In this document: piece after piece, positions 8,650 through 18,920 of the stretch
Layout of the letters: every line of letters starts with the position of its first letter
Position numbering within the stretch: the stretch's first letter is position 1
Origin: Thermodesulfovibrio sp. 3907-1M
Lineage (GTDB): Bacteria; Nitrospirota; Thermodesulfovibrionia; Thermodesulfovibrionales; Thermodesulfovibrionaceae
Assembly: GCF_040450955.1 (NCBI RefSeq)
Contig: NZ_CP144373.1
Coordinates: 1,034,486-1,098,485, forward strand
Reading direction: 5' to 3'
DNA length: 64,000 bases
Position numbers and translations under genes: made by a program
The notes under the pieces: model-generated
Told to the model about the DNA's origin: nothing
Databases searched by the model: none
What the model saw: only the letters and a program-made list of their open reading frames with translations

Positions 8650-10404
8650 ATGGTTTTTACAGATAGGGCAAAAACTGTTCTGGAAATAAGATACTTACTT
8701 AAAAATGAAAAAGGTGAAGTCATTGAAACTCCTGAGCAGATGTTTCATCGTGTTGCCAATTATGTTGCTCAGGCAGAAGAGCTTTATAAAGAAAATTCTT
8801 CTGAATGGGCAGAAAAGTTTTATGAAGTTATAAGTTCCTCAAGATTTCTTCCCAACTCTCCAGCATTGATGAATGCGGGCAAGCCAAAGGCTCAGCTTGC
8901 TGCATGTTTTGTTTTGCCTGTGGAAGACTCAATTGAGGCAATATTTAAAACACTTAAAGATGCTGCATTAATTCTTCAAAGTGGTGGTGGAACAGGATTT
9001 AACTTCTCCCGTTTAAGACCAAAGGGAGATGTTGTTCGCTCAACAGGTGGCATTGCAAGCGGTCCTGTTTCATTCATGAAGATATTTGATAAGGCTTCTG
9101 ACATAATAAAGCAGGGTGGAGCAAGAAGAGGTGCAAATATGGGCATATTGAGAGTTGATCACCCTGATATTCTTGAGTTTGTAAGAGTTAAAAGATTTGA
9201 AAGTTTAAGCAACTTCAATATCTCCGTTGCTGTTACAGATGCTTTTATGGAGGCTCTTTTTAAGGATGACTACTATCCATTGATAAATCCAAGAAGTGGT
9301 GAGGTTGTAAAAAAAGTTAAAGCAAAGGAGATCTTCAATGAAATTGTTGAGTCAGCATGGGAAACAGGAGACCCTGGAATAATTTTTATAGACACCATCA
9401 ATAAATACAATCCAACTCCTCATATAGGACAGATAGAAAGCACAAATCCCTGTGGTGAGCAACCTCTTTTACCCTATGAAGCATGCATTCTTGGCTCAAT
9501 TAATCTATCAAAGTATGTAAAAGATGGAAGCATTGATTTTCAAATGCTTGAGCATGATGTAAAGGTGGCAACAAGATTTCTTGATGATGCAATTGATGTT
9601 ACCCACTATCCTGTGCCTGAGGTTGAAAGGATGCATAAGGGAAACAGAAAAATAGGGCTTGGAGTAATGGGTTGGGCAGACTGCCTTGTGGAGCTGGGGA
9701 TTCCTTATAATCATAAAAAAGCCTTTGCGCTTGCTGAAACATTAATGAAGTTTATAAGTGAAAAATCCCATGAAGCATCTCAGGAGCTTGCACAAAAAAG
9801 AGGAGTTTTCCCAAATTTCAAAGGCTCTTTATGGGATAAAAGAGGCATCATGATTAGAAATGCCACCACAACAACCATTGCACCAACAGGAACAATATCA
9901 ATAATTGCTGACTGTTCAAGCGGAATAGAGCCTTATTTTTTGCTTGCTTACAAGCAGAGAATTCTTGATACAGAGTTTGAGATAATAAACAAGTATCTTA
10001 TAGATTTTGCTCAAAAACAGGGATTTTACAGCGAAGAATTCATAGATGAGCTTAGGAAAAAGGGAACTCTAAGAGGCATAAAAGCAGTTCCATTAAAAAT
10101 AAAGAGACTTTTTAAAACAGCCCTTGAAATCACTCCTCAGGAACACATTGAGATGCAGGCAGTATTTCAGAAATACACAGACAATGCAGTATCAAAAACC
10201 ATTAATCTTCCTCAGAGGACAAAAAAGGAAGAAATTGGAAAAATATTTATTCTTGCCTATAAAAAAGGACTCAAGGGAATAACAATTTTCAGGTATGGTT
10301 CAAAGACAGGAACGCTTCTTAGGGTAAGTGATGCCCATCTTACAGAATGCTGTGAGACAAAAGGAAGACCACCAAGAGTAACCAAACTTCACGATGCCGT
10401 ATGA
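8650..10404 (+). CDS. nrdJ: Adenosylcobalamin-dependent (class II) ribonucleoside-diphosphate reductase
   Basis: A 584-residue NrdJ that reduces ribonucleotides to deoxyribonucleotides with a B12-generated thiyl radical. Key residues are visible: Cys86 (AACFVLP) and Cys279 (YEACILGSINL) as the redox pair, and NPCGE with catalytic Cys268 flanked by Asn266 and Glu270; the 11-residue spacing of Cys268 and Cys279 matches Thermotoga-type NrdJ. GGGTGFNFS and GARRGANMG are substrate/effector-site motifs. No intein is present. The C-terminal tail ends with ECCET, a possible thiol shuttle. ATG 8650 lacks a ribosome binding site and lies 6 nt after TAAACT. The stop overlaps the next ABC gene by 4 bp. 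It complements the class III NrdD at 18922. Confidence 0.94.
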   Translation: MVFTDRAKTVLEIRYLLKNEKGEVIETPEQMFHRVANYVAQAEELYKENSSEWAEKFYEVISSSRFLPNSPALMNAGKPKAQLAACFVLPVEDSIEAIFKTLKDAALILQSGGGTGFNFSRLRPKGDVVRSTGGIASGPVSFMKIFDKASDIIKQGGARRGANMGILRVDHPDILEFVRVKRFESLSNFNISVAVTDAFMEALFKDDYYPLINPRSGEVVKKVKAKEIFNEIVESAWETGDPGIIFIDTINKYNPTPHIGQIESTNPCGEQPLLPYEACILGSINLSKYVKDGSIDFQMLEHDVKVATRFLDDAIDVTHYPVPEVERMHKGNRKIGLGVMGWADCLVELGIPYNHKKAFALAETLMKFISEKSHEASQELAQKRGVFPNFKGSLWDKRGIMIRNATTTTIAPTGTISIIADCSSGIEPYFLLAYKQRILDTEFEIINKYLIDFAQKQGFYSEEFIDELRKKGTLRGIKAVPLKIKRLFKTALEITPQEHIEMQAVFQKYTDNAVSKTINLPQRTKKEEIGKIFILAYKKGLKGITIFRYGSKTGTLLRVSDAHLTECCETKGRPPRVTKLHDAV

Positions 10405-11243
10405 TTAAACTTGAAAGCGTCTCAAAAAGTTATGGAAATTTAAAGGCGCTTCAGTCTCTTAGTTTTGAAATAAAGAAAGGTGAGATTTTCGGACTTCTTG
10501 GTCCAAATGGAGCTGGCAAGACAACCACTGTAAAAATACTCACAACCCTTACAAAGCCGGATAAAGGAGAATGTTTTATTGACGGAATTGATGTTGTAAA
10601 AAATCCATTTGAAATAAAAAAAATCATAGGAGTTGTGCCTCAGGAAAACAATCTTGAGAGGGAGCTTACTGTTTATGAAAACCTTCTTATCTATGGAATG
10701 CTACACAGGGTAAAAGAGCTTAAAACAAAGATTGATGAGATTCTTAAAGCCATGGAGCTTACAGAGAAAAAGCACTCTGTTGTATCAACCCTTTCAGGAG
10801 GGCTTCAGCGAAGAACACTTCTTGCAAGGGCATTGCTGGCTAATCCCAAGGTTTTATTTCTTGATGAGCCATCAATAGGTCTTGACCCCCACATAAGAAG
10901 ACAACTCTGGCAGATCATAAGAAAGATAAAGTCTGAAGGCAGAACAGTGCTTCTTACAACCCACTACATTGAAGAAGCTGAGGCACTCTGTGACAGGGTG
11001 GGTATTCTATCCCATGGAAAGTTGATTGCTCTTGGCAGCCCTTCAGAGCTTAAGAAAGATGTTGGTGAGTATGTGGTTGAGTTTACTGATAAGGAGGGAA
11101 GACTGATAAGCGAGATTTGCCACAGTAGAGAACAGGCATATGAGATTGCAAAACAGAGAAGTGATGGGGTAATGATAAGAAAGTCCAATCTTGAAGATGT
11201 TTTTGTAAAGCTTACAGGAGAGAGAATTAAGGAAAGGCAATGA
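10401..11243 (+). CDS. ABC transporter ATP-binding protein (DrrA-like exporter ATPase)
   Basis: A 280-residue ATPase with Walker A GPNGAGKTT (near residues 34-42), Q-loop VVPQENN, signature LSGGLQRR, Walker B VLFLDEPSIGLDP and the switch histidine TTHYIEEAEAL. The C-terminal 60 residues match the extension of DrrA/NatA-type ABC-2 exporters. It partners with the permease immediately downstream (4-bp overlap) as an ABC-2 exporter; the substrate cannot be inferred. The start overlaps the nrdJ stop (ATGA), so it is translated with nrdJ although no functional link is known. Confidence 0.92.
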   Translation: MIKLESVSKSYGNLKALQSLSFEIKKGEIFGLLGPNGAGKTTTVKILTTLTKPDKGECFIDGIDVVKNPFEIKKIIGVVPQENNLERELTVYENLLIYGMLHRVKELKTKIDEILKAMELTEKKHSVVSTLSGGLQRRTLLARALLANPKVLFLDEPSIGLDPHIRRQLWQIIRKIKSEGRTVLLTTHYIEEAEALCDRVGILSHGKLIALGSPSELKKDVGEYVVEFTDKEGRLISEICHSREQAYEIAKQRSDGVMIRKSNLEDVFVKLTGERIKERQ

Positions 11244-11983
11244 CAGGCTGGTATCCTGTTTTCATTAAAGAGATGCTTCAGTTCAAGCGAAAGCTTCTGA
11301 GACTTGGATACATTTTCTCAGCCATGATGGCACCGATTATTTATCTTATTACATTTGGGCTTGGACTTGGAAGAACAGTAAAACTCTCTGAAGGAACTGA
11401 TTATTTAACATTTTTACTGCCCGGTCTTGTAGCAATGAGTTCAATGAATAACTCTTACTCATGGGTTGCAAGCTCTCTTAACCTAAGCAGACTCTATTTC
11501 AAGACATTTCAGGTTTATATTCAGTCACCCATAAAGCCTTTTTCCATAATGATAGGAGAGGTTCTTGCTGGAATGGTAAAGGGAGTTTTTGCATCTCTTC
11601 TTATAATTGCTGTTGGCTTTGTGGTGCCTTCAAAATTTTCCATAAATCTGATTTTTGTTTTAACCCTGCTACTCAATTGCTTTATGTTTGCCTGTCTTGG
11701 TGTTATAACAGGAATGATAACAAAATCCCATGAAGACACTGCCACATACTCAAACTTTTTCATAATGCCAATGGCTTTTTTCAGTGGAACATTTTTCTCA
11801 GTTGAAAGAATCCCAATGATTTTTAAGCCAGTAATCTACATAATGCCCCTGACACATACGAATATTTTAATAAGAAAAACTTTTATTGACATGGATGGAG
11901 CAGTCTCTCTGTGTGTTATTATTTTTTACTGTGTTATTTTTTTTGTGATAGGTTCAAATTTAATGAAAAAATACAGTGAGTGA
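11240..11983 (+). CDS. ABC-2 type transporter permease
   Basis: A 247-residue integral membrane protein with six hydrophobic segments and the ABC-2 membrane-domain signature in the last third (FFIMPMAFFSGTFFSVERIP followed by a helix ending in a HTN motif). It supplies the membrane part of the exporter whose ATPase is encoded just upstream with a 4-bp overlap. GGAAAGGCA precedes ATG 11240 within the end of the ATPase gene. Substrate unknown; drugs, polysaccharides or lipids are all possible for this family. Confidence 0.9.
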   Translation: MTGWYPVFIKEMLQFKRKLLRLGYIFSAMMAPIIYLITFGLGLGRTVKLSEGTDYLTFLLPGLVAMSSMNNSYSWVASSLNLSRLYFKTFQVYIQSPIKPFSIMIGEVLAGMVKGVFASLLIIAVGFVVPSKFSINLIFVLTLLLNCFMFACLGVITGMITKSHEDTATYSNFFIMPMAFFSGTFFSVERIPMIFKPVIYIMPLTHTNILIRKTFIDMDGAVSLCVIIFYCVIFFVIGSNLMKKYSE

Positions 11984-12025: not shown

Positions 12026-13729
12026 ATGGATATTCTTGAATTAACTCTGATACTGTCTCAAAGGCTTGGTATTATAGCAACAGTAGCTTTTATCCTTTCA
12101 AGAATGCCTGCTCTGGGGAGAGTTCTTTCAAGAAAACCTTCAACTAAGGATAAATTAATTCTCACATTTGTCTCAGGAGGGCTTGGAATACTGGGGACAT
12201 TTGGAGCAGTTGAGATTCACGGAGCACTTGCTAATTCAAGAGTTGTTGGTGTTATGGTGGGAGGTCTTCTTGGTGGTCCATTAGTAGGAGCAGCAGCAGG
12301 ACTTATTGCAGGTGTTCACAGATACTTTGTTGGCGGATTTACAGCTTTTTCATGTGGATTGTCAGCAGTCGTTGAAGGGTTTCTCGGAGGTGTTGTTTAC
12401 AGGTACTGGAGGAAGGGATTAATTCCATGGCATGTGGCATGGCTGGCAGGATTTGCCGGAGAAATTATTCAGATGCTTATTATTCTTACCTTTGCAAAAC
12501 CTTTTTCAGAAGCAGTAGAACTTGTCAAAATTATTGCAATTCCAATGATTACTGTTAATTCCATAGGTGTGGCTATATTCATGCTTATAATAAAGTCTGC
12601 AGTGGAGCATCAGGAAAGAGTAGCTGCCATGCAGGCAAAAGCTACATTAAATATTACCAATCTCATACTTCCCCATCTAAGGCAGGGACTTAATGAAAAT
12701 TCAGCAGGCAAAATTGCTGAAATTATACTTGATACTCTGGGCGTAGCAGCAGTGGCGATAACTGATAGGAAAAAAATTCTTGCCCATGTTGGCACAGGAA
12801 GTGATCATCACCTTGCAGGTCATCCTTTACTTACAAAAGCAACACTGAATGCAATTAAAACAGGAGAAATTCAGATTGCCAATAAAAAAGAGGAAATTGG
12901 CTGTAGCAATCCCAAGTGCAGATTAAGCTCTGCTGTAATTGTTCCTCTGAAAAGAAGACAGGAAGTGATAGGTACTCTTAAACTTTATCATGAAAGGGAA
13001 AACAGCATTACTTCTGTTAATCTTGAGGTGGCAAGAGGACTTGCCCACATATTTTCAACGCAGCTTGAAATAGTTGAACTTGAAACGCTTGCAAGACTTA
13101 AAACAGAGGCAGAATTAAAATCTCTTCAAGCACAGATTCATCCCCATTTTATCTTCAATGCCCTGAACACGATAATTTCTCTTATAAGAATTGAACCTGC
13201 AAAGGCAAAAGATCTTCTTCTCAATTTAGCAACATTTTTAAGATACAGCTTGAAAAAAGAAAAGGAAATACCATTAAGAGAAGAGCTTTCCTATGTGGAA
13301 GCTTACCTTTCCATAGAGCAGGCTCGTTACAGAGATAAGCTCATTGTCAATTACTATATAGAGCCAACAGTAGACCTTGACATACCTGTGCCTCCATTTA
13401 CAATTCAGCCACTGGTGGAAAATGCTGTAAAACACGGATTAAAGCCAAAAATTGAAGGCGGTGAGATTTTAATAAGAATTCTTGACAATGATGATAGCGT
13501 TGTAATTTCTGTTGAAGACAATGGCGTGGGAATAAGTAATTCTCTTCAGAGATTGTCAGAAAAAGGCTCTGGACTGGGCTTATATCTTGTTAATGAAAGA
13601 TTGAAAAGATTTTATGGAGAAGAAAGCACTCTTAACATACAAAGCTTTCCAGGCATTGGCACAGAGGTTACATTTAAAATTCCTAAAAAATACGCTTTAA
13701 AAGATGTTGTTTTCAGCTATAGTAGTTGA
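12026..13729 (+). CDS. LytS-family sensor histidine kinase
   Basis: A 567-residue membrane sensor kinase. The first ~190 residues form the 5TM-5TMR_LYT membrane domain (PSTKDKLIL, then the GGLLGGPLVGAAAGLIAG repeat region). A GAF-like domain follows (about 215-345) with CSNPKCRLSSAVIVPL, and then a His_kinase/HATPase module: QIHPHFIFNALN with phospho-acceptor His374 (PHF), PPFTIQPLVENAVKHGL N-box and DNGVGI/GSGLGLYL G-boxes. Homologues BtsS and YpdA sense pyruvate and control CstA-type transporters; the cstA gene downstream makes the same role likely here. ATG 12026 lies 7 nt after TATACT and has no ribosome binding site. The 3' end overlaps the response regulator by 26 bp. Confidence 0.92.
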   Translation: MDILELTLILSQRLGIIATVAFILSRMPALGRVLSRKPSTKDKLILTFVSGGLGILGTFGAVEIHGALANSRVVGVMVGGLLGGPLVGAAAGLIAGVHRYFVGGFTAFSCGLSAVVEGFLGGVVYRYWRKGLIPWHVAWLAGFAGEIIQMLIILTFAKPFSEAVELVKIIAIPMITVNSIGVAIFMLIIKSAVEHQERVAAMQAKATLNITNLILPHLRQGLNENSAGKIAEIILDTLGVAAVAITDRKKILAHVGTGSDHHLAGHPLLTKATLNAIKTGEIQIANKKEEIGCSNPKCRLSSAVIVPLKRRQEVIGTLKLYHERENSITSVNLEVARGLAHIFSTQLEIVELETLARLKTEAELKSLQAQIHPHFIFNALNTIISLIRIEPAKAKDLLLNLATFLRYSLKKEKEIPLREELSYVEAYLSIEQARYRDKLIVNYYIEPTVDLDIPVPPFTIQPLVENAVKHGLKPKIEGGEILIRILDNDDSVVISVEDNGVGISNSLQRLSEKGSGLGLYLVNERLKRFYGEESTLNIQSFPGIGTEVTFKIPKKYALKDVVFSYSS

Positions 13730-14477
13730 TGACGAACCCTATGCAAGGGAAGAGTTGATTTACATCCTTTCCCAGTTTGATTCCTGCAGGATAATAGGAC
13801 AGGCTGGTAATGCAAAGGATTGTATCTCTCTATATTCAAAATTCAGACCTGATGTAGTCTTTCTTGATATTGAAATGCCTGATATGTCAGGAATTGAAGT
13901 GGCAACACAGCTTGCGAAGTTTAGTAATCCACCTCTTATTGTTTTTGCAACAGCCTATGATGACTATGCAGTTGAAGCTTTTGAGCTCGGAGCAGTTGAT
14001 TACATCCTTAAACCCTTTGAAGAGAAAAGAATTGCTAAAACAATCATGAGAATAGAAAATCTTAAAAGCAATCAGGCTGAATGGAATGAGGCTGTAGGAA
14101 GACTTTCTCAATTTCTTGAGAAGAAAAAGATTTTTAAAAAACTTCCTGTCCAGCAAAGAGCAGGTGTTATAAGTTTTGTTCCATTTATGGATATTTTGTA
14201 CTGCGAAGCAAGCGAAGGAGGGGTAAAAGTTATTACAGTAAAAGATGAATACTATTTTGATGGCACTCTTACAGAACTTGAAGCAAGACTTAAGGATGAA
14301 GGATTCATGCGGGTTCATAAAAGTTACATTGTAAATTTAAAGAGGATTGAGGCGGTCCTGCCATGGTTTAAAGGCACTTACTGGCTTGTTATTGAAGGTA
14401 AAAAAAATCAAATCCCTGTAAGTAAATCAATTGTTAAGGAACTTAAAGAAGTTCTCGGAATAAAGTGTAGCAGTTAA
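13704..14477 (+). CDS. LytTR-family response regulator
   Basis: A 257-residue regulator: receiver domain with acidic pocket VVDDEP, phospho-acceptor Asp55 (VVFLDIEMPDMSG), Thr in FATAYD and Lys in DYILKPFEE, then a LytTR DNA-binding domain from about residue 150 (FVPFMDILYCEASEGGVKV, then FMRVHKSYIVNLKRI and the C-terminal NQIPVSKSIVKELKE). It overlaps the sensor kinase by 26 bp and is followed by cstA after a 125-bp gap holding a candidate LytTR operator. Homologues BtsR/YpdB activate transporter genes in response to pyruvate; the target here is inferred from position. Confidence 0.93.
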   Translation: MLFSAIVVDDEPYAREELIYILSQFDSCRIIGQAGNAKDCISLYSKFRPDVVFLDIEMPDMSGIEVATQLAKFSNPPLIVFATAYDDYAVEAFELGAVDYILKPFEEKRIAKTIMRIENLKSNQAEWNEAVGRLSQFLEKKKIFKKLPVQQRAGVISFVPFMDILYCEASEGGVKVITVKDEYYFDGTLTELEARLKDEGFMRVHKSYIVNLKRIEAVLPWFKGTYWLVIEGKKNQIPVSKSIVKELKEVLGIKCSS

Positions 14478-14498
14478 TTTCCATTTAACTTCCATTTT

Positions 14499-14529
14499 TT
14501 CCATTCATATAAAGTTTTCTTCCATTCAT
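14499..14529 (+). promoter_or_regulatory. Candidate LytTR regulator operator upstream of cstA
   Basis: A perfect 10-bp direct repeat TTCCATTCAT occurs at 14499-14508 and 14520-14529 with an 11-bp spacer (period 21 bp, two helical turns). Two partial copies (TTCCATTT) precede it at 14479-14498. LytTR regulators bind two direct repeats on one DNA face; E. coli YpdB uses a 10-N11-10 layout of similar sequence. The second repeat ends 10 bp before the -35 of the cstA promoter, suited to activation. Confidence 0.7.
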
Positions 14530-14539
14530 AAATTTTTCA

Positions 14540-14568
14540 TTGTTCATAGATTCATTTCCTTATAGAAT
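14540..14568 (+). promoter_or_regulatory. Putative cstA promoter
   Basis: TTGTTC (14540-14545), 17-bp spacer, TAGAAT (14563-14568). The poor -35 suits an activator-dependent promoter. The predicted leader is about 28 nt and ends with AAGGAGGTG before ATG 14603. Confidence 0.5.
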
Positions 14569-14602
14569 GATTTCATAAAAACAAAAAAGGAGGTGTGGCT
14601 TT

Positions 14603-16426
14603 ATGCATGCGTTGGTGCTTGTAATCATAGCAGCATGCGTTTTTGTGCTTGCCTACAGGTTTTACAGTGCCTTTATTGCTGCAAAGGTTCTTGCTCTTGA
14701 TCCAAATCGTCAGACTCCTGCAGTAAGGCTTAACGATGGAAGAGACTATGTCCCGACGAATAAGTGGCTTATTTTCGGACATCATTTTGCAGCAATAGCT
14801 GGTGCTGGTCCTTTAATTGGACCTGTTCTGGCAGCACAGTTTGGCTATCTGCCAGGATTCTTATGGATTTTAATTGGAGGAGTTCTCGCAGGTGCTGTTC
14901 ATGACATGGTTGTTCTCTTTGCATCTGTAAGGCATAACGGAAAATCTCTTGCAGAGGTTGCTAAAGCTCAGATAGGACCTGTATCTTACTGGCTTGTTCT
15001 TGTGGCAACCCTGTTTTTATTAATTATCGTTCTTGCTGGTGCTTCAATTGCTGTTGTTAATGCACTTTTTAACAGTCCATGGGGTGCTTTTACTGTAGGA
15101 GTAACAATTCCAATTGCTCTTTTTATAGGAGCTTATCTTAAGTGGCTAAGACCTGGAAAGATTGTTGAAGGAAGTATTATTGGTGTTGCACTCATTATTC
15201 TTGCTGTTGTTCTTGGTCCTGTAATTAAGGAATCTGCTCTTGCACCCTATTTTACATTCAGTAAAAAAGAGCTTTCCGTATTAATCCCAGTTTATGGATT
15301 TTTTGCTGCTGTTTTGCCTGTCTGGTTACTACTTGTTCCAAGAGATTATCTAAGTTCATACATGAAATTCGGCACGATGTTTTTGCTTGCTATTGGCGTA
15401 ATTCTTGTTAATCCATTAATTCAAATGCCTGCTGCAACACAGTTTATCTCTGGTGGAGGACCTGTCATTCCAGGTAAAGTCTGGCCCTTTATGTTCATTA
15501 CAATTGCCTGCGGTGCGATTTCTGGTTTTCACTCCCTCGTATCATCTGGAACAACACCAAAGATGGTGGCAAATGAAAAGGATATAAGAGTAATTGGTTA
15601 TGGTGCAATGCTCACAGAGAGCTTTGTTGCTCTAATGGCATTAATAGCAGCAACAGTGCTTCCTACAGCAGACTACTTTGCCATAAACAGTCCACCAGCA
15701 GCATTTCAGAAACTTGGCATGCAGGTTCAGGACCTTCCATTTCTTTCTGCTTTGGTAGGTGAAGAACTTGCAGGTCGCCCTGGTGGAGCAGTATCCTTAG
15801 CAGTTGGAATGGCTGATATTTTCTCAAGAATTGGTGGATTAAGACATTTAATGAGTTACTGGTATCATTTTGCCATCATGTTTGAAGCTCTGTTTATTCT
15901 AACTCTAATTGATGCTGGTACAAGAGTTGGAAGATATCTTATGCAGGAAATTGGCGGAGCAGTTTATCCAAAACTCAGAGACTATAAATGGTGGCCCGGT
16001 GTAATTGGAACGAGTGCGATATTTACATTTTGCTGGGGATACCTTCTTTATACAGGAACAATCTCAACAATATGGCCTCTCTTTGGTGTGAATAATCAGC
16101 TTCTTGGTGGAATGGCACTGGCAATAGTGACAACTTTACTTTTGAGAATGGGTAAGGCAAAATACATATGGGTAACAATGGTTCCAATGGTATTTTTACT
16201 TGTTACCACCATTGTAGCTGGTTATCAAAATATCGTGAATAATTATCTACCAAAAAATAATTACCTGCTTGCTGTGCTCTCTGCAGTAATGATTGTAATG
16301 GTCATACTGATTGTGGCAGACTCAGTAAGAGTGTGGATAAGCATATTGAGAGGTAGAACCCCTCTTATTAAAGAAACAGAAGAAACATTTATGAAAGAAG
16401 CTCCCACAAAATATCTATCTGAATAA
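14603..16426 (+). CDS. cstA: CstA-family carbon starvation/pyruvate transporter
   Basis: A 607-residue polytopic inner-membrane protein with about 16 hydrophobic segments. Family hallmarks: FGHHFAAIAGAGPLIGPVLA near residue 55, GAVHDMVVLFASVRHNGKSL near 95, and SGFHSLVSSGTTPKM near 305. CstA proteins and the close paralogue BtsT import peptides and/or pyruvate; which one applies cannot be told from sequence. Length is nearer to the 600-residue short form than to E. coli CstA (701). An ideal ribosome binding site (AAGGAGGTG) precedes ATG 14603. Position behind a LytS/LytTR pair and operator repeat suggests induction by that system. A hairpin terminator follows. Confidence 0.93.
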   Translation: MHALVLVIIAACVFVLAYRFYSAFIAAKVLALDPNRQTPAVRLNDGRDYVPTNKWLIFGHHFAAIAGAGPLIGPVLAAQFGYLPGFLWILIGGVLAGAVHDMVVLFASVRHNGKSLAEVAKAQIGPVSYWLVLVATLFLLIIVLAGASIAVVNALFNSPWGAFTVGVTIPIALFIGAYLKWLRPGKIVEGSIIGVALIILAVVLGPVIKESALAPYFTFSKKELSVLIPVYGFFAAVLPVWLLLVPRDYLSSYMKFGTMFLLAIGVILVNPLIQMPAATQFISGGGPVIPGKVWPFMFITIACGAISGFHSLVSSGTTPKMVANEKDIRVIGYGAMLTESFVALMALIAATVLPTADYFAINSPPAAFQKLGMQVQDLPFLSALVGEELAGRPGGAVSLAVGMADIFSRIGGLRHLMSYWYHFAIMFEALFILTLIDAGTRVGRYLMQEIGGAVYPKLRDYKWWPGVIGTSAIFTFCWGYLLYTGTISTIWPLFGVNNQLLGGMALAIVTTLLLRMGKAKYIWVTMVPMVFLLVTTIVAGYQNIVNNYLPKNNYLLAVLSAVMIVMVILIVADSVRVWISILRGRTPLIKETEETFMKEAPTKYLSE

Positions 16427-16470: not shown

Positions 16471-16493
16471 TCATTTGACAAAAAAAATCCGAT

Positions 16494-16650
16494 TAAGGTA
16501 TTTTCAAAATTGCTGGATGTAAGGGAAGAGGGGTGAGAATCCCCCGCTGCCCCGCAGCCGTGTTGGGAACGAAAGCCCATTTAAGCCACTGGAGAGAAAT
16601 CTCTGGGAAGGCGGGCAAGTAGGCATTAGCCCAAAGCCGGAAGACCTATC
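16494..16650 (+). promoter_or_regulatory. Cobalamin (B12) riboswitch aptamer
   Basis: The segment has the ordered conserved elements of a cobalamin riboswitch: a 5' arm, GGGTGAGAATCCCCCGCTGC core followed by CCCCGCAGCCGTG, GGAACGAAAGCCC, AGCCACTGG, GGGAAGGCGGG and the terminal B12-box AAGCCGGAAGACCT. It lies between the cstA terminator and metE. Binding of adenosyl- or another cobalamin is expected to switch off the downstream unit metE-nrdD. Exact 5' and 3' limits are approximate. Confidence 0.93.
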
Positions 16651-16654
16651 CAGC

Positions 16655-16691
16655 CTGAAAGCCTTTGGCTTTTAGAATACCTCGCGGGAGG
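16655..16691 (+). promoter_or_regulatory. Expression platform with ribosome-binding-site hairpin of metE
   Basis: After the aptamer there are two small stem-loops: CTGAAAGCC-TTT-GGCTTTTAG (16655-16675) and CCTC-GCGG-GAGG (16680-16691). The second pairs the metE Shine-Dalgarno (GGGAGG, 6 nt before ATG 16698). No U-tract terminator is present, so control is more likely at translation start than at transcription. Confidence 0.5.
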
Positions 16692-16697
16692 AATTAA

Positions 16698-18920
16698 ATG
16701 ACCGTTAAAACAACTGTCTTTGGCTATCCCAAGATTGGTCCTCAAAGGGAGCTTAAAAAAGCCTTAGAGCAATACTGGAGTGGAAAAATCTCTCAGAGGA
16801 AGCTCATTGATGAGGCTGAAAAATTAATCATCTACAATGCAAAGACCATTGCTCAGTATGAGGTTGATATTATTCCATCCAATGATTTTTCCCTTTATGA
16901 CTTTATCCTTGACCTTTCAGTCATGTTTAATGTTATTCCTGAAAGATTCAGAAAAATTGAAGACCCCCTGGAAAGATACTTTGCAATAGCAAGGGGCTCA
17001 GCAGATGCTCCTGCTTCAGAGATGACAAAGTGGTTTAACACAAACTATCACTACATTGTCCCTGAAATTGAATATGGCACAGAGTTTGAACTCATAGAAA
17101 ACAAAGCATTAAAAGAGTATGAACTTCTGAAGAATAATCTTAATCTTAAAACTAAGCCTGTGATAGTTGGTCCCTTTACCTATCTTTACTGTGCAAAACT
17201 AAAGGACTATGCCTATTTTCTTGACAGAATAGCTTCTGTTTACATGGGAGTTCTTAAAGAGCTTGAAGAATCTGATGTTGAGGAGGTCCAGATTGATGAG
17301 CCCGCAATGGTTATTGATTTAGACAATAATGATACTCAGGCAATCATAGATTGTTACAGAAAAATCACTTCCGGGCTTAGCAAAATAAAACTCTATGTTC
17401 AAACTTACTATGAATCTCTATCACAGTATGAAAAGATAGTTTATGAACTGCCAGTTCATGGCATTGGATTTGATTTTGTTGACGGCAAGGAGAATCTTGA
17501 GAACATCTCAAAATTCGGATTTCCGAAGGATAAAACATTAATTGCAGGAGTTGTCTCAGGAAGAGACCCTTGGAAAACAGACTTTAAAGAAGCTTTAAAA
17601 ATTATTGAGACTTTAACAAAGTTTACGGAAAATATAATTCTTTCCAACTCCTGCCCTCTCATGCATCTTCCAGTGACTGTAAAAAATGAATCCTTGCCTG
17701 AAGAAATCCTCTGCCTGTTAAGCTTTGCCAATGAAAGGCTTGATGAGCTTGCAGTGCTTAAAACAGCAATAAATGAAGGGAAGGCTCCTTCAGAGCAGAA
17801 TTTATCCATGAAATTCACTAATCCTGAAGTTAAGAAAAAGATCTCTCAGATTGATGAAAATGCTCTGTGCAGAAAACCCTCTTTCAGTGAGCGATATGAA
17901 AAACAGATGGAAATTCTCAAACTCCCTGTCTTCCCAACTACCACAATAGGAAGCTTTCCTCAAACTCCTGAGATAAGGAAAGCAAGGGCAGATTACAAAG
18001 CAGGTAGAATCTCTCTTGAGGAGTATGAATCCTTTATCAAAGATGAGATAAAAAAGGCAATTGAGATTCAGCAGGAGATCGGGCTTGATGTTTTAGTTCA
18101 TGGAGAGTTTGAAAGAACAGATATGGTTGAGTTCTTTGCAGAGCGTCTTCAGGGATTTGCCATAACAAAAAATGGATGGGTTCAGTCATATGGCTCAAGA
18201 TGTGTAAGACCACCAATAATTTATGGCGATGTATGGAGAGAATCCCCCCTGACTCTTAAAGAAACACTTTATGCCCAGTCTCTCACTGAAAAGCCGGTGA
18301 AAGGAATTCTTACTGGACCTGTTACAATACTTCAGTGGTCCTATCCGAGAAAGAATGTTTCAAAAAAAGAAGTTGCCTATCAGATTGCTCTTGCTCTCAA
18401 GGAAGAAGTAGTAGAGCTTGAAAAAGCTGGTATAAAAATCGTTCAGATTGATGAGCCTGCTTTCAGAGAGGGAATGCCTCTTAAAAAAGCAAAGGTTGAT
18501 GAATACTTTGACTGGGCTATAAAAAGCTTTAAAATTGTTACTTCTTCTGTAAAAGCTGAAACCCAGATTCACACCCATATGTGCTACTCTGAGTTTAATG
18601 ATATAATTGATAAAATCTATGCAATGGATGCTGATGTGATATCAATTGAAGCATCAAGAAGCAAAGGAGAGATTCTAAAAGCCTTTGAAAAATTTAAGTA
18701 TGACAGAGGCATTGGAGTTGGAGTGTATGATATTCACTCTCCAAGAGTTCCCTCTACTGAGGAGATGATTGAAATTGTTAAGCGGGCAGTAAAGCTTATT
18801 GATAAAAGACTTTTCTGGATAAACCCTGACTGCGGACTTAAAACAAGAGCCTGGCAAGAAACCATTCCCTCACTTAAAAACATGGTTAAAGTTGCAGAGA
18901 TAATGCGTAAGGAGGCTTAA
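16698..18920 (+). CDS. metE: Cobalamin-independent methionine synthase
   Basis: A 740-residue two-barrel MetE that transfers a methyl group from methyltetrahydropteroyl-glutamate to homocysteine. The N-terminal barrel starts with TTVFGYPKIGPQRELKKALE; the C-terminal barrel starts at TTTIGSFPQTPEIRKARAD and contains VHGEFERTDMVEFF, LTGPVTILQWSY, VQIDEPAFREG and the zinc ligands HTHMCYSEFN and NPDCGLKTR. Length is normal. A cobalamin riboswitch precedes it and nrdD starts 2 nt after its stop, so both B12-independent enzymes are expected to be made when cobalamin is scarce. Confidence 0.96.
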   Translation: MTVKTTVFGYPKIGPQRELKKALEQYWSGKISQRKLIDEAEKLIIYNAKTIAQYEVDIIPSNDFSLYDFILDLSVMFNVIPERFRKIEDPLERYFAIARGSADAPASEMTKWFNTNYHYIVPEIEYGTEFELIENKALKEYELLKNNLNLKTKPVIVGPFTYLYCAKLKDYAYFLDRIASVYMGVLKELEESDVEEVQIDEPAMVIDLDNNDTQAIIDCYRKITSGLSKIKLYVQTYYESLSQYEKIVYELPVHGIGFDFVDGKENLENISKFGFPKDKTLIAGVVSGRDPWKTDFKEALKIIETLTKFTENIILSNSCPLMHLPVTVKNESLPEEILCLLSFANERLDELAVLKTAINEGKAPSEQNLSMKFTNPEVKKKISQIDENALCRKPSFSERYEKQMEILKLPVFPTTTIGSFPQTPEIRKARADYKAGRISLEEYESFIKDEIKKAIEIQQEIGLDVLVHGEFERTDMVEFFAERLQGFAITKNGWVQSYGSRCVRPPIIYGDVWRESPLTLKETLYAQSLTEKPVKGILTGPVTILQWSYPRKNVSKKEVAYQIALALKEEVVELEKAGIKIVQIDEPAFREGMPLKKAKVDEYFDWAIKSFKIVTSSVKAETQIHTHMCYSEFNDIIDKIYAMDADVISIEASRSKGEILKAFEKFKYDRGIGVGVYDIHSPRVPSTEEMIEIVKRAVKLIDKRLFWINPDCGLKTRAWQETIPSLKNMVKVAEIMRKEA

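Follow-up and report, generated by a model that had tools for sequence, protein, structure and literature searches.

A probable pyruvate-sensing LytS/LytTR circuit with a predicted three-site operator at cstA in Thermodesulfovibrio

The analysis of the window, a 64,000-nucleotide stretch of Thermodesulfovibrio DNA to which all coordinates refer unless stated otherwise, points to a cstA promoter preceded by three phased LytTR-type sites, 20 and 21 bp apart, that lie directly downstream of a kinase-regulator gene pair. The locus is likely to encode a BtsSR-BtsT-like pyruvate-sensing system that would activate its own transporter gene through this three-site operator, a reading in which we infer the ligand, the binding and the direction of control from sequence comparison. 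In the mechanism proposed, the LytS-type kinase would take up extracellular pyruvate in its transmembrane pocket and phosphorylate the LytTR regulator; three regulator molecules would then occupy the three sites cooperatively, the one at the proximal site would contact RNA polymerase at a poor -35 element, and cstA would be switched on, leading to pyruvate import.

The gene context described by an earlier, sequence-only reading of this DNA was borne out, with Pfam matches at both ends: a LytTR-type response regulator gene (13704-14477; Pfam LytTR, 102 bits), the repeats, and cstA (14603-16426, ATG at 14603; Pfam CstA, 733 bits, residues 3-539) follow one another on the plus strand. The gene of a LytS-type sensor histidine kinase (12026-13729, plus strand) overlaps the regulator gene by 26 bp. 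By Pfam, the kinase domains (5TM-5TMR_LYT, GAF, His_kinase and HATPase) and the receiver and LytTR domains of the regulator give the BtsS/BtsR-type architecture, and the kinase is 37% identical to BtsS and 36% to YpdA, while the regulator is 34% identical to both BtsR and YpdB and scores 181 bits against a curated BtsR cut-off of 246. This regulator is the only LytTR-domain gene of the genome above the family cut-off, and the only intact one. The transporter shares 46% identity with E. coli CstA and 43% with the pyruvate symporter BtsT; at 617 bits against the 1188-bit E. coli CstA equivalog cut-off, it belongs to the CstA family and is not a strict equivalog. Just upstream of lytS lies an ABC transporter pair (10401-11983), a position kept in only some congeners (L062, L065), and downstream of cstA a cobalamin riboswitch (RF00174, 82 bits; 16479-16667) stands directly upstream of a MetE-type gene (16698-18920).

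Between the regulator gene and cstA, TTCCATTCAT occurs in two exact copies (14499-14508 and 14520-14529), 21 bp from start to start with an 11-bp spacer, and the proximal copy ends exactly 10 bp before a -35-like TTGTTC, all as the sequence-only reading had it. Allowing up to three mismatches, the spaced pair has one match in the window against 0.02 expected from shuffles. Across the 1.94-Mb genome it is unique at zero to two mismatches, the three further matches all lying at exactly three, so that the frequent random recurrence named beforehand as the outcome that would speak against an operator was not seen. The two-repeat operator proposed earlier was right as to both repeats and incomplete as to their number, since a third in-phase copy, TTTCCATTTAAC, lies directly 5' of the pair and the array comprises three phased sites. 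The distal site 1 (TTTCCATTTAAC, 14478-14489) adjoins the lytTR stop codon with no base between them; site 2 (TTTCCATTCATA, 14498-14509) follows after 20 bp and contains the first exact copy, and the promoter-proximal site 3 (CTTCCATTCATA, 14519-14530) follows after another 21 bp and contains the second. The -35 hexamer TTGTTC (14540-14545) is reached 21 bp from the start of site 3, and the -10 hexamer TAGAAT (14563-14568) stands, across a 17-bp spacer, at +44 from the same point, a register that is conserved; a cstA ribosome-binding site, AAGGAGGTG, is read from the sequence at 14587-14595. All of these elements are on the plus strand. Three copies of TTTCYRTTSA are in this way stacked on one helix face at intervals of 20 and 21 bp, and a third interval, again of 21 bp, leads to -35, with site 3 ending 9-10 bp before it. 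This is the arrangement that characterizes LytTR operators, in which direct repeats of 8-13 bp recur on the same face, with a period of about 20-22 bp, upstream of -35. With up to three mismatches, the full triple pattern has a single match in the whole genome and the reversed pattern none. An extra copy, TTCCATTTTT (14490-14499, plus strand), probably lies outside the operator; a four-copy array was considered and rejected, since this copy is out of phase and not kept in relatives.

These observations are extended by intergenic regions taken from eight Thermodesulfovibrio genomes and from Bacillota loci of the same gene order, in which three copies of the word, not two, were found. When each of 22 such regions was compared with itself at offsets 8 to 49 against dinucleotide shuffles, with no motif supplied, the only z scores above 3 were 7.6, 5.6 and 5.5, obtained at offsets 20, 21 and 41 in that order; these peaks are the distances expected for sites at 0, 20 and 41. 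A weight matrix of 12 columns (consensus about TTTCYRTTSA), trained leaving one clade out each time and with the spacing left free between 19 and 22, was then applied to 30 lytTR-cstA regions from Thermodesulfovibrio and Bacillota. The held-out regions scored 16.4 to 37.0 against a shuffle mean of about -4, none of 300 shuffles reached the observed score in any of the 30 regions, and reading the regions backwards gave far lower scores. The array was thus present in 30 of 30 regions; in the window, the single intact LytTR gene is immediately upstream of it. The spacings recovered were 20 or 21, then 21, with the single exception of 21/20 at a Sporomusaceae locus, where the T-run of a terminator resembles a site displaced upstream by one step and the fixed register gives a fit to 20/21. 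The promoter shares this rigidity: when the best match to TATAAT was sought with no position prior, +44 from the start of site 3 collected 13 of the 24 clade-weighted votes (next offset 1.5), about 21 of the 22 representatives have TANNNT there, and -35 starts with TT at +21 in most.

Conservation of the individual sites bears on whether the operator consists of the two perfect copies only, as at YpdB/LytT promoters, with the distal copy fortuitous. Two repeats make up the classical LytTR operator (PMC4847170) and TTTCCATTTAAC is the less perfect copy, yet between clades site 1 does not fall behind sites 2 and 3 in conservation (67% identity vs 63% and 57%), even if this conservation is partly ambiguous in some Bacillota (Thermoanaerobacter, Sporomusa) because the site overlaps a terminator T-run. 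Moreover, site 1 is found in every region, and the self-similarity peak also appears at offset 41. The -10 element is 67% identical between clades and the flanks and spacers 28-49%, the top spacer value being due to TTT directly before site 3. We consequently regard the two-copy operator as improbable, and the operator is very likely to have three functional sites that would be occupied cooperatively.

The association of the array with cstA is further illustrated by three Veillonella loci (four records; L095, L098, L113) that were absent from training, in which cstA is inverted relative to lytSR. Were the array part of the lytTR end, it would have been left in place; instead, an array scoring 36-39 precedes cstA on the opposite strand and has thus moved with the gene. 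Of 16 Thermodesulfovibrio genomes, nine have orthologs of both LytTR and this CstA and the remaining seven have neither, a co-occurrence that is supportive, not a formal test, as the genomes are related and some are incomplete. In genome-wide triple scans of eight relatives, matches with zero or one mismatch fell at the expected cstA loci in four, and the reversed control gave three-mismatch matches at about the same frequency. No array was found, within the loci and at the threshold used, at LytTR genes lacking a downstream cstA (Pelosinus, Sporomusa and unrelated LytTR-like Thermodesulfovibrio loci). The possibility that the repeats arose by chance in AT-rich DNA, or are the binding site of an unrelated factor, draws on the base composition of the intergenic region and on the out-of-phase extra copy it carries. 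Against it stand the uniqueness of the array in the genome, the held-out clade tests, the way the array follows cstA when gene order changes and the perfect co-occurrence with LytTR in the genus, which together leave this explanation a negligible likelihood; a chance repeat as such was rejected on the window expectation, the genome uniqueness and the shuffles of each region. The earlier proposal of an operator for the adjacent LytTR regulator is strongly supported by comparative footprinting across clades, in conserved site sequence, rigid spacing and promoter register, and by the Veillonella array, and the repeats are almost certainly part of such an operator, to which the regulator is predicted to bind.

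Duplicated modules were also observed among these loci. Desulfofundulus thermobenzoicus (NZ_WHYR01000053.1; L066, L067) has two lytS-lytTR-cstA modules on one contig, each with its own three-site array, and one congener carries lytTR-cstA twice, about 51 kb apart and identical over 4821 bp (L008/L019; G015:C1:1520064-1524884 and 1571267-1576087), with a roughly 230-bp repeat-like insert between promoter and cstA in each copy. Within the window genome, a genome-wide search for a second target with the two-site pattern at up to two mismatches returned one other place (1 mismatch), while the reversed control returned seven, and a wider regulon is therefore without evidence. As the two-site pattern yields no credible second target, the regulon is probably the cstA promoter alone; single-promoter regulons have been reported for yehT-yjiY (PMC5431176) and likewise for lytT-pftAB (PMC5626966).

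The nature of the signal was approached through the kinase pocket and the transporter. Residues R72, R99, C110 and S113 of BtsS have been shown to form its pyruvate site (PMC10653868), and their counterparts in the window kinase are R, R, C and S, with the phospho-acceptor H382 also kept. E. coli CstA and BtsT carry pyruvate and are highly specific for it (PMC7730263), and pyruvate is an electron donor for five of the five Thermodesulfovibrio strains tabulated (PMC5165239). The pyruvate-responsive module suggested by the sequence-only reading is supported by the four conserved pocket residues together with the homology of the transporter to CstA and BtsT, the pocket match being consistent with pyruvate without singling it out, because most LytS kinases share the arginines and S113 is replaced by A in many Bacillota relatives and in one congener, several relatives with the same operator among them. 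The same substitution lends some weight to another inducer acting through the same operator and regulator, be it lactate, a different small hydroxy or 2-oxo acid, or a signal of membrane or energy state: according to the BtsS paper, C110/S113 variants might sense lactate (PMC10653868), and lactate is also a donor for Thermodesulfovibrio. Such an inducer is rather unlikely, however, given that the window kinase has all four BtsS residues and that its target belongs to the CstA family, whose E. coli members are so specific. Pyruvate is the probable main ligand.

The direction of control was judged from the position of the sites upstream of a mostly poor -35, from which activation of cstA appears highly probable. 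Repression would have a parallel in CoxC, which represses coxB via three LytTR direct repeats in 18-21-bp steps (PMC11347149); but the CoxC repeats overlap -35, whereas in the window 9-10 bp separate the end of site 3 from the -35 that follows, the usual activator position, and -35 elements are poor in many relatives, so that a repressing regulator seems very unlikely.

The origin of the module was examined by comparing CstA proteins. The window CstA is 75-81% identical to the CstA of Desulfofundulus, Ammonifex and Moorella, compared with at most about 62%, over near-full length, for Nitrospirota outside the genus. A maximum-likelihood tree built from 59 CstA proteins unites the seven Thermodesulfovibrio rows in a single clade (100/100) that is sister to Ammonifex (100/99) within a clade with Moorella and Desulfofundulus (100/100), and it places the other 23 Nitrospirota rows elsewhere. 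Among those 23 other Nitrospirota cstA genes, one has a LytTR gene in the 1.5-kb upstream flank. That lone locus (L150, G222, about 1367-1418), with LytS/LytTR upstream, carries a weak triple, TTGCCGTTCA, TTGTCATTCG and TGACCATTCA, at 21/21 bp, which is possibly a diverged version of the operator. Taken together, the comparisons suggest that thermophilic Bacillota were probably the source from which the ancestor of the genus acquired the kinase, regulator, operator and transporter as a set, the direction of transfer being our reading of the tree. The earlier reading had placed the module in a lineage remote from the gamma-proteobacterial models; it is not peculiar to this lineage, being common in Bacillota, the probable source, where sampling is biased because similarity to the regulator was used to collect the rows, and having a precedent in Desulfovibrio (PMC3333781). 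A sensor with its regulator, operator and transporter may thus be transferable between phyla as a functional whole; in this case the donors were probably thermophilic Bacillota and the recipient a Nitrospirota genus of sulfate reducers living on pyruvate and lactate.

Comparison with known systems begins with BtsS/BtsR-btsT (yjiY) of E. coli, which shares a LytS-type kinase with the same four pocket residues, a LytTR regulator at 34% identity and a CstA-family target. Its direct repeats also recur at 21 bp, and the motif cores align, CCRCTYA against CYRTTSA. The E. coli system differs in that the transporter is unlinked to btsSR and yjiY is under CRP too, whereas in the window the genes are neighbours and no gap separates the operator from the lytTR stop codon. 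In E. coli K-12, the btsT promoter carries GCCGCTCA, ACCGCTTA and ACCACTCA at 20- and 21-bp steps (NC_000913.3, L143, minus strand upstream of 2780), of which the proximal words, ACCGCTTA and ACCACTCA, presumably fit the published BtsR motif. The chance of meeting the distal GCCGCTCA at 20 or 21 bp is about 0.005 with the motif given and about 0.02 without it; E. coli btsT, too, appears to have a third site, placed with the same 20/21 spacing, one that may be unreported, which suggests that the two-site picture of this promoter may miss a site. That a rigid three-site operator (20 then 21 bp, with -35 in the next register) is the general rule for LytS/LytTR regulators of CstA-family transporters, E. 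coli btsT included, is a proposal to which we give slightly less than an even chance. If true, a regulator trimer or a stepwise cooperative array would be the basic activating unit, as against the two-site textbook model. The array of the window provides a concrete predicted operator for pyruvate-sensing circuits beyond model bacteria, and its strict geometric rule (20/21/21 bp, +44) could allow such circuits to be found from sequence.

Further systems share single features with the window locus. In YpdA/YpdB (PyrS/PyrR)-yhjX of E. coli, GGCATTTCAT-N11-GGCATTTCAT recurs at 21 bp and the regulator is likewise 34% identical, while the target is a major-facilitator protein, the motif is different and the operator is described as two-site. 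LytS/LytT-pftAB of Bacillus subtilis is pyruvate-induced and has two 13-nt boxes 8 nt apart, each essential (PMC5626966); it resembles the present locus in its 21-bp period and in the pyruvate-induced transporter genes that adjoin lytST, and differs in that PftAB is no CstA protein and two boxes are described. The LytR-type regulator DVU0596 of Desulfovibrio vulgaris targets two cstA genes adjoining its kinase-regulator operon (PMC3333781), a similar pairing of a LytR-type regulator with adjacent cstA targets, although it belongs to another phylum and the Kdp operon is also targeted. Three direct repeats at about two helical turns are known from the CoxC/RcoM operators, whose LytTR repeats follow one another in 18-21-bp steps and, for CoxC, are all needed (PMC11347149); these regulators differ as single-component CO sensors with another motif, and CoxC represses from sites overlapping -35. 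In the literature consulted, no conserved three-site operator was found described for LytS/LytTR-CstA systems. Set beside these examples, the cstA locus belongs, with good support, to a known type of pyruvate-sensing circuit and represents no new kind of system.
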